Origin: Providencia rettgeri
Lineage (GTDB): Bacteria; Pseudomonadota; Gammaproteobacteria; Enterobacterales; Enterobacteriaceae
DNA length: 64,000 nucleotides
Direction of reading: 5' to 3'
Assembly (NCBI RefSeq): GCF_013255915.1
Contig: NZ_CP053896.1
Location: forward strand, 4,216,001-4,280,000
Shown here: positions 7,245 through 25,371 of the stretch, one piece after another
How positions within the stretch are numbered: position 1 is the first letter of the stretch
Layout of the letters: every line of letters begins with the position of its first letter
Notes under the pieces: generated by a model
Told to the model about the DNA's origin: nothing
The model's database searches: none
What the model saw: the letters and a program-made list of their open reading frames with translations, nothing else
Program-made: the position numbers and the translations under genes

Positions 7245-7351
7245 TAGGCATAAAATTCGCTATTACTATAGCCTAACTAATTAAAAAATGGTTCTAATTA
7301 GTTTTATCACTCTAATTAACTTGGGTTTTTACACTATATCCCCCAAGCCTT

Positions 7352-7474
7352 TACTCTAAATAATTCGAGTTGTAGCTAGGCGGCAAGTGAACGAGACGCT
7401 AGGAGCATACATAAGTATGTGACTAGTGCGAATGAACGCGGCCAACAACGCTACGGCTCGAAGTATGACGAGTA
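7352..7474 (+). repeat. ERIC-type intergenic repeat, single copy
   Basis: This 123-bp element has TACTC...GAGTA ends and the ERIC core (AGGAGCATACATAAGTATGT, continuing GACT), close to the sequence targeted by standard ERIC primers. Its outer arms are complementary (ATTCGAG with CTCGAAG). It sits just beyond the stop codon of the BhsA-like gene. An inverted relative of equal length is at 25246-25368. Confidence 0.8.
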
Positions 7475-15786: not shown

Positions 15787-16071
15787 TATTTATGTGAACC
15801 TTAAATAATAACGGGGGAAACTACCATCCCTAGAGTATGACAAGAAAGTTAAATACAGCGTTAATAAATTCGTGCGCAAGATCACGAAAAGGTAGGTCAT
15901 TGACTAATATTGAAGCGGTTTCAGCCTTATGTCAAATATTGATGAGTGTACTTTTCTCAAATGTCGATTACTTAACCAGTGACTTACGATATAATTTCAA
16001 GCCGAATAAAGACCACGAATAGATAGCAAGAATAAATAATTCCGCCACAAAATAAAAATCCCACAACGTAT
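15787..16071. other. Divergent region between the exporter operon and the ERIC array
   Basis: There is no gene of credible composition here. On the plus strand a perfect TATAAT at 15990-15995 with a poor -35 (TTACTT region) could drive btsS, in which case the ERIC array lies in its 5' leader. I see no operator that I can name. Confidence 0.4.
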
Positions 16072-16443
16072 CATGCTCTAAATAGTTCACATTGTGGGTA
16101 GGCGACAAGAAAAGGTATCTTGGGGAGCATACACAAGTATGTGACCCAAGGAGCTGAACGTAGTCAACACCCCCAGAATGTGAAACATGACGAGCCATGC
16201 TCTAAATAGTTCGCATTATGGGTAGGCGACAAGAGAAGATAGCTTGGGGAGCATACACAAGTATGTGACCCAAGGAGCTGAACGTAGTCAACACCCCCAG
16301 AATGTGAAACATGACGAGCCATGCTCTAAATAGTTCGCATTATGGGTAGGCAACAAGAAAAGGTATCTTGGGGAGCATACACAAGTATGTGACCCAAGGA
16401 GCTGAACGTAGTCAACACCCCCAGAATGTGAAATATGACGAGC
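16072..16443 (+). repeat. Three tandem ERIC-type repeats
   Basis: Three head-to-tail copies of exactly 124 bp (16072-16195, 16196-16319, 16320-16443) differ at only a few positions each. Each runs from CATGCTCTAAATAGTTC through an ERIC core (GGGGAGCATACACAAGTATG) to a CATGACGAGC-like end. The third copy ends directly at the btsS ATG. Tandem amplification at exact unit length points to slippage or recombination rather than independent insertions. Confidence 0.85.
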
Positions 16444-18129
16444 ATGTACGAATTTGACTTAATATTACTCCTCCTCCAGCAAATGTGCGTCTACTTAGTG
16501 ATCGCATGGGTCCTCAGTCGTACCCCGCTGGTTACCCCATTACTTAAAGTCACTATTCGCTTACCTCACAAGGTGATGTGCTACCTGATTTTCTCAGTAT
16601 TTTGCATTATCGGTACTTATTTTGGTTTGCATATCAATGATTCTATAGCCAATACTCGCGCCATTGGTGCCGTGCTTGGGGGTCTATTAGGCGGTCCCGC
16701 TGTCGGCTTTGCCGTTGGTTTTACTGGTGGGTTACATCGTTATTCATTGGGTGGCATGAGCGCATTTGCCTGTATGGTTTCAACGATTGTTGAAGGGTTG
16801 ATTGGCGGGTTAGTTCATCGTTACTTTATGAAACGCGGCGAAATTAATAAAATTTTTAATCCTATGATTGCCAGCTGTGTCACTTTTATTGCTGAAATCA
16901 TACAAATGCTAATTATTTTATTGTTGGCAAAACCTTTCGATGAAGCCCTCGAACTTGTTAAAAATATCGCTGCACCTATGGTCATCGCAAATACGATTGG
17001 CGCAGCCATGTTTATTCGTATTTTACTCGACCGCCGCGCTATTGTTGAAAAATACACAACTGCATTCTCTGCTCAGGCGCTAAAAATCGCCTTAACCACT
17101 GAAGGAATTCTGCGTAAAGGCTTTAATGCTGATAACAGTATGAAAGTTGCCAAGATTATTTATCAAGAACTAGAAATTGGCGCCGTCGCCATCACTGATC
17201 GTGAAAAAATACTCGCATTTATTGGTATTGGCGCTGATCACCATCGCCCGGGAACACCGATTTCGTCGAGTCAGTCAAGGCAAGCTATAGAGAATAATGA
17301 AGTTGTATATGCCGATGGCAATGAAACGCCTTACAAGTGTTCATTAAGCCCCACCTGTAAACTCGGTTCTGCATTAGTGATCCCATTACGCGGGGAAAAT
17401 GAAAAAGTCATTGGTACAATTAAACTGTATGAAGCGAAAAATAGCCTATTTAGCTCCATAAATCGTACCCTTGGTGAAGGCATAGCCAGCTTATTTTCCG
17501 CGCAAATTCTCGCGGGCCAATATGAGCGCAATAAGCAATCACTGTTACAATCTGAAGTTAAACTACTTCATGCGCAAGTGAACCCCCACTTTTTGTTTAA
17601 TGTACTCAATACGCTGCAAGCCGTGATCCGCAAAGATAGCCAGCAAGCAGGCCAGCTTGTGCAATATATTTCGACATTTTTCCGCAATAATTTAAAACGA
17701 CCTGAACAAAATGCCACGCTTGGTGAAGAAATTGAACATATCAACGCCTATTTGCAGATAGAAAAAGCCCGCTTTCAAGAAAGCTTACAAATTCATATTG
17801 AGATCCCAGATGAAGTCAAACAGGTTGAACTTCCGGCATTTACCCTGCAGCCACTGGTTGAAAATGCAATTAAACACGGCACCTCACAGTTATTAGAAAC
17901 AGGATATATTACAATACGTAGTTATATCGACAGTGAACATGTCTACATCGAAATAGAAGATAACGCGGGGCTATACAAGCCCACTAAAAAGTCCGATGGC
18001 TTAGGAATGGGGCTAGTCGATAAACGCTTACGTTTAAAATATGGTGAACAATATGGTATCAGCGTAGAACATGAGCCAGAAAAATTCACTCGAATGAAAA
18101 TTCGCCTGCCTTATTTGGCTACAACATAA
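16444..18129 (+). CDS. btsS: Pyruvate sensor histidine kinase BtsS
   Basis: BtsS senses extracellular pyruvate and phosphorylates BtsR. From the ATG at 16444 the protein has 561 residues, the E. coli length, and starts MYEFDLILLL in register with E. coli MYDFNL; the ATG nine bases earlier lies inside the repeat. It has an N-terminal multi-helix LytS-type domain (residues 1 to about 200), a GAF domain, the LytS-type kinase motif HAQVNPHFLFN near residue 380 and a C-terminal ATPase (LVENAIKHG, GLGMGLVDKR). The bases before the start come from the ERIC repeat and offer only a weak ribosome site (ACGAG). Confidence 0.93.
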   Translation: MYEFDLILLLLQQMCVYLVIAWVLSRTPLVTPLLKVTIRLPHKVMCYLIFSVFCIIGTYFGLHINDSIANTRAIGAVLGGLLGGPAVGFAVGFTGGLHRYSLGGMSAFACMVSTIVEGLIGGLVHRYFMKRGEINKIFNPMIASCVTFIAEIIQMLIILLLAKPFDEALELVKNIAAPMVIANTIGAAMFIRILLDRRAIVEKYTTAFSAQALKIALTTEGILRKGFNADNSMKVAKIIYQELEIGAVAITDREKILAFIGIGADHHRPGTPISSSQSRQAIENNEVVYADGNETPYKCSLSPTCKLGSALVIPLRGENEKVIGTIKLYEAKNSLFSSINRTLGEGIASLFSAQILAGQYERNKQSLLQSEVKLLHAQVNPHFLFNVLNTLQAVIRKDSQQAGQLVQYISTFFRNNLKRPEQNATLGEEIEHINAYLQIEKARFQESLQIHIEIPDEVKQVELPAFTLQPLVENAIKHGTSQLLETGYITIRSYIDSEHVYIEIEDNAGLYKPTKKSDGLGMGLVDKRLRLKYGEQYGISVEHEPEKFTRMKIRLPYLATT

Positions 18130-18148: not shown

Positions 18149-18865
18149 ATGAATGTATTGATTGTTGATGACGAACCTCTTGCACGGGAAAATGTGCGTT
18201 GCCTACTTGAAGAACACGATGATATTGAAATTATCGGTGAATGCGCAAATGCGATTGAAGCGATTGGGGTCATTCACAAAAAAAAGCCTGATGTGGTTTT
18301 TCTTGATATTCAAATGCCGCGCCTAACTGGCCTTGAAATGGTACGTATGTTAGATCCAGAAGACCGCCCCTATATCGTCTTTCTTACCGCTTTTAATGAA
18401 TTTGCCATCCAAGCTTTTGAAGAGCATGCATTTGATTACTTGTTAAAGCCCCTTGAAACAGAGCGATTAAAAAAAACCTTAAACCGCCTACGTCAAGGTA
18501 AGCAAAAACAGAACCTTGAACTGCTCAGCAACAATGAGCCGCTCAAATTTATCCCTTGTACTGGCCATAGCCGCATCTATTTGATGAAGCTTGATGAAGT
18601 GCTATATGCCACCTCACGTATGAGTGGCGTGTATGTAATGAGCACACAAGGGCAAGAAGGCTTTACTGAGCTCACATTACGCACATTAGAAACTCGTACA
18701 CCTTTAGTACGCTGCCATCGCCAATATTTGGTCAACATGACTCAGTTAAATGAAATTCTGTTTGGCGACGGTGGACAAGCCGAGTTGGTACTCAGCTCCG
18801 GTGAACATATACCTGTCAGCCGCCGTTATCTCAAGCCACTAAAAGAGGCATTGGGTTTAGTTTGA
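18149..18865 (+). CDS. btsR: LytTR response regulator BtsR
   Basis: This 238-residue protein has a receiver domain (acidic pair D7/D8, phospho-acceptor D53 in FLDIQMPR) followed by a LytTR DNA-binding domain ([22 protein letters not shown]). In E. coli BtsR activates the pyruvate transporter gene btsT. It starts 19 nt after btsS, forming one operon. btsT is not in the window. Cytosolic. Confidence 0.95.
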
Positions 18866-18869
18866 GTGG

Positions 18870-19199
18870 TTAAATAATTAAAATCTCTGGCCCTCGCTGC
18901 TCTATAAGATGTAGCATTCTTAGAGCTGGGCCACTGGGTTTTTTTTCTTCTCTTTCCCACTTAGATACGCTTTCCTTAGACATGCCCAGCGCTAAAGCTA
19001 ACATGGCTTGTGACATTCCATATTGAGCACGGAGTTGTTTGATTTGCGCACCGCTCATCATAGGTACTACCTTGATTTTATTATTTATTTTACGATTGCC
19101 AACCTTCTGTTCTAAATCAGTAACTAAACTTTTTGGTGCAGCATCAACCTGATGTAACTCTTTCGCTAGCTCAAGCATGTTTTCTAGTTTATTGCTCAT
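18870..19199 (-). CDS. XRE-family antitoxin (HigA/NadS-like)
   Basis: This 109-residue protein has a C-terminal helix-turn-helix: QIKQLRAQYGMSQAMLALAL, then GMSKESVSKWEREEKKPSG. The N-terminal 50 residues are charged and probably bind the toxin. It follows the toxin gene with an 11-bp overlap, the reversed order seen in HigBA-type modules. It would autorepress through the palindrome upstream of the toxin. It is convergent with btsR, 4 bp apart, with no visible terminator. Confidence 0.85.
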   Translation of the reverse strand: MSNKLENMLELAKELHQVDAAPKSLVTDLEQKVGNRKINNKIKVVPMMSGAQIKQLRAQYGMSQAMLALALGMSKESVSKWEREEKKPSGPALRMLHLIEQRGPEILII

Positions 19200-19578
19200 C
19201 AGTAAGCTCCTCCAAAATATTATGTAAAACTAAATCAGCAATTTTATCATCCGTATAATTAAGAAAAAGTCGAGATAAATTCTTATACGCATCTAGTTCA
19301 TCATCTTCAATTTCTTTTACTCCTTTAGCAGCTATATTGCATTTCTCCCAACCATCGGCAAAAAAGAGATGATGGCTAACTTTGAAGAATATAATAACCC
19401 TGACCCCACCACTTTTCCCTTTTCCATTAATGGCAATCCTTTTTTTAATTACACCACTTCCTAAGTCTGCTTCATAAACCCCCGCTAAGACTTCATTTGC
19501 AGCCTTAAGCAAGTGTTTATCCATTATCTTAATTTTTTTGGTGCTTCGCTTAAATGAGGAAATTTTATAGAACGCCAC
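19189..19578 (-). CDS. RelE/ParE-superfamily toxin (HigB-like)
   Basis: The best start is a GTG at 19578 with GGAGAG 5 nt upstream; this gives 129 residues (MAFYKISSFKRSTKKIKIMD...), the length usual for the RelE family paired with XRE antitoxins. An ATG reading from 19680 would add 34 residues spanning the promoter and operator. Core motifs are EADLGSGVIKKRIA, GKGKSGGVRVIIFFK and IEDDELDAYKNLS. It is expected to be an mRNA-cleaving toxin; the target is not readable. It is co-transcribed with the downstream antitoxin. Confidence 0.82.
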   Translation of the reverse strand: MAFYKISSFKRSTKKIKIMDKHLLKAANEVLAGVYEADLGSGVIKKRIAINGKGKSGGVRVIIFFKVSHHLFFADGWEKCNIAAKGVKEIEDDELDAYKNLSRLFLNYTDDKIADLVLHNILEELTDEQ

Positions 19579-19592
19579 AACTACTCTCCATG

Positions 19593-19635
19593 TAGTACCT
19601 ATTACTATAGTAGCAAGTGCCATTTTTGAAGACAA
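19593..19635 (-). promoter_or_regulatory. Toxin-antitoxin promoter with overlapping operator
   Basis: On the minus strand TTGTCT (19630-19635) and TACTAT (19607-19612) are 17 bp apart. The -10 is embedded in the perfect palindrome TACTATAGTA (19603-19612), and TAGTA/TACTA (19593-19607) forms a second dyad. XRE binding there would block transcription. Confidence 0.6.
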
Positions 19636-19663
19636 TATATATTGTTCATTTTTAAAACAACAA

Positions 19664-19694
19664 AAAACCCGCATTTCCAAGAAATGCGGGTTTT
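19664..19694 (-). terminator. deaD terminator
   Basis: A 14-bp perfect stem (AAAACCCGCATTTC with GAAATGCGGGTTTT, 3-nt loop) is followed on the minus strand by a T run. It separates deaD from the toxin promoter. Confidence 0.85.
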
Positions 19695-25022: not shown

Positions 25023-25112
25023 CTTCCTACTACAGCCTCGCGACTAATGAGAATACTGATGTTCTAGTGATCAATTCTCTCATTAGCCGCGCGAATCGGA
25101 TGTAGCGAAGAG
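25023..25112 (-). promoter_or_regulatory. pnp leader stem-loop (RNase III / PNPase autoregulation)
   Basis: A long imperfect hairpin (arms GCGACTAATGAGAAT and ATTCTCTCATTAGCCGC with flanking TACAGCCTCGCG/CGCGAATCGGATGTA) lies 55 nt upstream of pnp. E. coli has such a double-stranded element, cut by RNase III and then trimmed by PNPase to destabilise its own mRNA. Function is inferred from position and structure. Confidence 0.75.
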
Positions 25113-25205
25113 GCATTAATAAAAACAACTCACTACGATTTATAGCTTAGCATTTAAGTTAAGTATAATTCGAGTATTACTTCAACTTTCAAAATAACTT
25201 TTAGA

Positions 25206-25232
25206 AGAAAAGGGGCCTCTGGCCCCTTTTCT
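25206..25232 (-). terminator. Terminator between rpsO and pnp
   Basis: The stem AGAAAAGGGGCC/GGCCCCTTTTCT closes a 3-nt loop. On the minus strand the arm ends in TTTTCT, so termination is partial, compatible with read-through into pnp. Confidence 0.75.
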
Positions 25233-25245
25233 CTGAAACTGACTC

Positions 25246-25368
25246 TACTCGTCATACTTCAAGTTGCAACGTTGTTGACTACATTCACTCGTACTAGCCA
25301 CATACTCATGTATGTACCTAGTAACTCACTCATTTGTCGCCTAGCTGCAACTCAAATTATCTAGAGTA
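25246..25368 (-). repeat. ERIC-type repeat between rpsO and its terminator
   Basis: A 123-bp ERIC copy in inverse orientation (ends TACTCGTCATACTTC and CTAGAGTA, core CACATACTCATGTATGTACC). It starts 3 nt after the rpsO stop and lies before the terminator, so it is transcribed in the rpsO-pnp mRNA and can form a long hairpin at the rpsO 3' end. Confidence 0.8.
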
Positions 25369-25371
25369 AGA

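Follow-up and report, generated by a model that had tools for sequence, protein, structure and literature searches.

The closest described relatives of the repeat studied here are the ERIC / IRU / RU-1 elements of Enterobacterales, with which, according to the sections of PMC6267812 that we drew on, MITEPlu5 of Photorhabdus is also grouped. In Yersinia, ERIC hairpins lie within mRNA and have an orientation-dependent effect (De Gregorio et al. 2005, as relayed in the consulted parts of PMC2229807 and PMC10969869), and ERICs at gene 3' ends expose an RNase E site (same parts of PMC2229807 and PMC10969869). Insertion orientation is known to follow the replication fork for Tn7, through TnsE, and for IS200/IS605, as stated in the excerpts of PMC5371812 used here. 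Among the open-access titles and abstract openings listed, we found no report of tandem ERIC arrays, of Providencia ERIC leaders or of ERIC replication polarity, which does not imply their absence from print; the ERIC and tandem-repeat literature was covered through parts of PMC3733652, PMC10969869, PMC2267715, PMC2759123, PMC6267812 and PMC3091717.

We analyzed a window, meaning the whole stretch of 64,000 nucleotides, from the genome of Providencia rettgeri designated G000; G060 is the only other genome of the same species in our comparisons. Tandem Repeats Finder (TRF) reported a repeat of period 124 at 16072-16443, with 3.0 copies, 95% matches and 0% indels, and its units are mutually 96-97% identical. 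The btsS ATG (16444-16446) follows immediately, confirming the original prediction of three exact 124-nt units running head to tail up to the start codon. Together with this ATG, the terminal unit has the full ERIC length of 127 nt, and the start codon provides its final three bases. The repeat thereby supplies the btsS translation start region, as had also been proposed. An in-frame ATG within the last unit means that the real btsS start could lie 9 nt further upstream. The features of the locus are collected in the table.

Features of the btsS locus and ERIC 3' ends at stop codons (window coordinates, or locus handles where these are given)
Feature	Position	Strand	Basis or remark
CRP-like palindrome TCGTGCGCAAGATCACGA	15870..15887	+	conserved upstream of btsS in aligned sequences whose flank extends there
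-10 box TATAAT, likely btsS promoter	15990..15995	+	aligned block; spacing from the ATG in species lacking the ERIC
Probable degenerate 3' remnant of an older ERIC unit (CCCACAACGTAT)	16060..16071	+	inferred by comparison
ERIC unit 1	16072..16195	+	124 nt
ERIC unit 2	16196..16319	+	124 nt
Terminal ERIC unit	16320..16446	+	127 nt including start codon; single long hairpin predicted
Closing-stem 5' arm CATGCTC	16320..16326	+	predicted fold
In-frame alternative ATG within terminal ERIC (ATGACGAGCATG)	16435..16437	+	sequence
Closing-stem 3' arm GAGCATG, holding the btsS start codon	16440..16446	+	predicted fold; P(unpaired) of AUG 0.00
btsS, LytS-type histidine kinase (5TMR_LYT, His_kinase)	16444..18129	+	Pfam
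btsR, response regulator	18149..18865	+	NCBIfam equivalog above cut-off
ERIC 3' ends at stop codons	L078, L079, L082, L083, L085-L089, L091, L113, L114
ERIC 3' ends at stop codons, further	L047, L049, L052, L058, L060

No NCBIfam model matched btsS at E 1e-20, so its name is based on its domains and on the neighboring btsR. Beyond btsR, at 18870-19680, lie two small minus-strand open reading frames (ORFs) that look like a toxin-antitoxin pair by eye, one partner having a helix-turn-helix. Upstream of the array, the position of the putative remnant CCCACAACGTAT continues into GACGAGCC in the alignment of G011 and G006.

Judged by profile match and ungapped alignment, the btsS units are ERICs. 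A profile built from Providencia copies matches the E. coli ERIC consensus given in Table 1a of PMC2759123; in a two-sequence search the match spans 120 positions (E 3e-28). Against this consensus, the btsS units align without gaps at 61% identity, the terminal unit over 127 positions, and the two other ERIC copies in the window reach 74-79%. The assignment is based on profile, colinearity and hairpin, and not on pairwise identity, because 100 shuffled-unit controls reached up to 63.6% in gapped alignments, which inflate identity so that this control fails to separate the units from chance, and because a BLAST search with the last unit found matches in only 14 of 5426 E. coli genomes (58% coverage, 75% identity). 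No Rfam family matched the array at gathering score.

Across 23 ERIC copies of G000, 22 of the 35 predicted hairpin pairs show changes on both sides. The terminal inverted repeats CATGCTC/GAGCATG pair at all seven positions in the window's terminal unit and carry one mismatch in G060 (CATACTC). Empty sites end in TTATG, TAATG or CTATG, and at the filled junction, GAGCATG, no clean TA repeat is seen. The Providencia copies share with the ERIC / IRU / RU-1 elements the 127-nt length (counting the ATG), a colinear ungapped alignment, a long hairpin kept by covariation, an intergenic position and a multi-copy state. They differ from these elements in their head-to-tail arrays and strong replication polarity, and the btsS units differ from the E. 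coli consensus in sequence and in ending with CATG rather than TATA. With a covariance model of the Providencia copies, 149 of 150 scored candidates in G000 are ERIC matches, a lower bound, and 67 of 119 genomes of the family give a match. An 81% match on a Providencia alcalifaciens plasmid was rejected as a btsS locus; it is an ERIC-like piece beside other genes.

To place the array in its evolutionary context, 24 Providencia genomes were compared (23 plus G060). An ERIC is present at the btsS start in 18 of them and absent from the other six, and in the btsS tree the 18 carriers form one clade with support 1.000, so that a single insertion suffices. The six ERIC-free genomes have a short leader with GGAA ahead of the ATG; in one of them, G001, an ERIC lies further upstream, past its -10. 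The number of profile pieces at btsS is ten in G005, four in G006, three in G000, G060, G010, G017 and G004, two in G015, G011, G008, G016, G022 and G003, and one in G007, G020 and G014, with a shortened piece among those of G015, G010, G016, G017, G022 and G003. G012 retains only an ERIC remnant (53 nt aligned), and G018 has an N gap at the array. In G012, G006, G007, G020 and G004, the ERIC stops a few nucleotides short of the ATG. The expected variation in copy number was thus found between species (0-10 units) but not within P. rettgeri, where both genomes have three.

Repeats may be misassembled, and G018 has an N gap at this place, and the three copies could in principle be a collapsed or expanded single copy. 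We consider this exceedingly improbable, as the units differ at several positions and 15 more readable genomes carry one to ten units and one a remnant. A collapsed single copy, which would have spoken against the original prediction, is not seen in G060 of the same species, which also shows three units.

The btsS promoter is likely to lie upstream of the array, in line with the original prediction. A -10-like hexamer (TATAAT, TACAAT, TAAAAT or TAGAAT) occupies the aligned place in 22 aligned Providencia sequences, from both ERIC-bearing and ERIC-free species, and one is also readable in G018 and G009. The TATAAT at 15990-15995 was not among the calls of a generic promoter scan, and we therefore only infer the transcription start (~16003). 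Further upstream, the conserved palindrome resembles what we take to be a CRP site. A promoter inside or between the ERIC units, which would leave most of the array untranscribed, is favored by the poor upstream -35 and by the scan missing the upstream promoter. Such a promoter is very improbable, given that the sole promoter-like match in 15787-16443 is on the opposite strand, with none on the plus strand, and that the -10 block is aligned across species with and without the ERIC.

With the promoter upstream, the btsS message would begin with ERIC hairpins. As in Yersinia, to the extent described in the consulted sections of the two Yersinia sources, the hairpin would lie inside the transcript; the Yersinia RNase E case concerns a gene 3' end, whereas the Providencia btsS ERIC would make up the 5' leader and contains the start codon. 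In the predicted fold of the terminal unit, CAUGCUC pairs with GAGCAUG, which contains the AUG. Predicted stability exceeds expectation both for the last unit plus the 37 nt beyond it (z -4.1) and for the whole leader with the gene start, 16002-16500 (z -7.2), in folds that take no account of co-transcriptional folding.

For five Providencia that lack the ERIC, the models give a leader of 25-51 nt and a probability of 0.67-0.85 that the AUG is unpaired. In the 17 readable ERIC genomes, the predicted leader is 87-1285 nt and this probability is 0.00-0.31 in 16; the exception is G006, whose AUG is predicted to be open (0.80). Outside Providencia, the ERIC-free G034 (0.41, with an arbitrary 140-nt leader, as no -10 was found) and Moellerella (0.38) have a half-closed AUG, which indicates that an open AUG is not general beyond the Providencia clade. 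We also considered translational coupling, in which a reading frame carried by the ERIC would melt the hairpin. With a minimum of 8 codons, out-of-frame ORFs reach the btsS start in 12 of 17 genomes, and the remaining five yielded none; this candidate was rejected, as the ORFs are inconsistent across genomes in start, length and stop.

The end of the terminal unit differs in its conservation from the units before it. TATGACGAGC stands directly 5' of the ATG in all 13 terminal units that touch the ATG and in 16 of the 18 terminal units overall, while just 3 of 12 genomes have it in an internal unit (Fisher 1e-4 and 0.0012, values that treat related genomes as independent and hence are not true probabilities). 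Its retention suggests that the start region is constrained. Ancestry or an array-edge effect may explain this conservation instead, given that the terminal 3' end is near the general ERIC consensus and that these genomes are related.

Tandem organization is not peculiar to btsS. If ERICs are counted as tandem when same-strand starts lie within 260 bp of each other, 87 of the 149 matches in G000 fall into arrays at 29 of 91 loci, contrary to the earlier view of ERICs as normally single copies. A looser grouping (starts within 1 kb) gives 30 of 87 loci and 92 of 149 matches. In two genomes of other genera, by comparison, same-strand neighbors within 260 bp were seen at 0 of 42 and 0 of 37 loci, among the matches listed.

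Six of the G000 arrays have inter-unit spacers that are 93-100% identical. These shared spacers indicate growth by local duplication and exclude repeated independent insertion as the source of the six arrays. Here the palindromic repeat was amplified locally together with flanking DNA. At btsS there are no spacers between the units, so growth by duplication is based on unit similarity, which makes independent insertions unlikely. The amplified unit is a whole MITE, and one such array makes up a sensor gene's leader. Some btsS units are mosaics or of another core type (G005, G011). The ten units of the G005 leader have two ERIC core types (units 1-3 and 4-10), with a common 3' end in units 1-9, as if unit cores had been swapped between ERICs.

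To follow arrays within the species, 19 orthologous loci with at least two pieces in either G000 or G060 were compared (two further G000 arrays, L090 and L091, not counted). Copy number differs at 15 of them, with flanks 97.6-99.9% identical; examples for G000 versus G060 are 7:3, 7:1, 6:3 and 3:5, partial pieces included. The remaining four, btsS among them, have equal numbers. Another gene start located at an ERIC end is that of a prpF-like gene (Pfam; L084, 1845-1990), which begins at the 3' end of an array with three units in G000 and one in G060. This array ends 6 nt beyond an in-frame ATG; 15 nt after that ATG comes another possible start.

Taken together, we consider it probable, though well short of certain, that one insertion followed by local duplication gave btsS a long ERIC-hairpin leader with a buried start codon and likely lowered its basal translation. 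In the ancestor of a single Providencia clade, an ERIC, a MITE, would have landed once in the space separating the btsSR promoter from the btsS start. The native ribosome site is absent from this clade; the insertion would have displaced it, turning the ERIC 3' terminus into the new translation start region and placing the start codon in the predicted closing stem of the hairpin. The array would then have expanded and contracted to 1-10 units through local tandem duplication, like other ERICs of the genus. The resulting btsS message would carry an ERIC-hairpin leader, of ~440 nt here, most likely reducing basal translation of the sensor. A length-variable, clade-wide ERIC leader on btsS is real; its structure and evolution are well supported, and its effect on expression we infer.

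The instability of arrays bears on two other accounts. One holds that the ERIC at btsS is a neutral repeat, tolerated while its copy number drifts by slippage, with no regulatory role for btsS. The commonness of tandem ERICs in G000, the 15 of 19 loci that vary within the species and the shuffling of variants among the units of G000 and G060 are all in its favor, and we regard it as a serious possibility, if a doubtful one. Against it, all 18 genomes of the clade keep the ERIC, the 3' end of the terminal unit is conserved while internal units diverge, and the predicted burial of the start codon would be unlikely to remain without effect. The other account, put forward in the original prediction, makes copy number an adaptive tuner of BtsS level, a VNTR switch. 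It would fit the range of 0-10 units across species and the variation of similar arrays within species, but G000 and G060 both have three units at btsS, and the fold suggests that each unit should pair with itself, leaving the terminal hairpin much alike with one or ten units. We regard such a switch as improbable.

To examine how ERICs are placed in the chromosome, their orientation was related to replication, with origin and terminus marked by dnaA and dif. In G000, 85 of 91 ERIC loci point against the fork (56 of 62 single-unit loci; 81 of 87 under the looser grouping; 37 of 38 with a DNA query). The same orientation was found for 35 of 37 ERICs in G060 and, among the top matches listed, for 48 of 49 in nine other Providencia genomes. 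Among the matches listed, it also holds for 29 of 29 in G003; the figures are 40 of 40 for G005 (53 of 150 matches, with the midpoint serving as terminus) and 66 of 67 for G007 (97 of 150 matches). Within the window, a single ERIC lies at 7351-7471 (+) and another at 25249-25369 (-); the latter is one of the six G000 loci oriented with the fork and adjoins an SraG match (25023-25231).

Outside Providencia there may be a weaker lean in the same direction. Five genomes of other genera were chosen as single contigs with matches, and one of them, G116, was dropped because its dnaA and dif are only 140 kb apart. In the four remaining genera, 19 of 40, 27 of 36 (p 0.004), 13 of 18 and 9 of 15 loci point against the fork among the matches listed (42 of 80, 37 of 70, 18 of 24 and 15 of 19, respectively; rounded genome lengths were used for three).

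Evidence on whether this polarity is a mere effect of gene direction points both ways. At 20 of 32 loci, the ERIC 3' end lies -9 to +11 nt from the stop codon of a gene that is oriented towards the element, which ties ERIC orientation to genes; these loci are the arrays and best matches rather than a random set, and the genes are crude ORFs of at least 80 aa. A gene-direction effect would reverse the ERICs beside lagging-strand genes, and few show this. Insertion linked to the fork, by analogy with Tn7 or IS200/IS605, is a lead only. According to the excerpts of PMC5371812, orientation is fork-related in those elements as it is in Providencia ERICs, but they are autonomous with known transposases. 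A broader idea, suggested by the sequence patterns, is that a Providencia ERIC lineage is placed in step with the fork and amplifies into unstable arrays, so that unit number at btsS would act as a heritable, fast-changing setting of the pyruvate sensor; we think this unlikely, though conceivable.

At btsS, a MITE has taken over the translation start of a conserved two-component system throughout an entire clade, and the matched empty sites in sister species make the effect of a single insertion on expression directly testable. The tandem arrays provide many natural copy-number series, some of them within one species. Finally, the orientation of Providencia ERICs bears on how ERICs move, and it fits replication-coupled insertion or loss.
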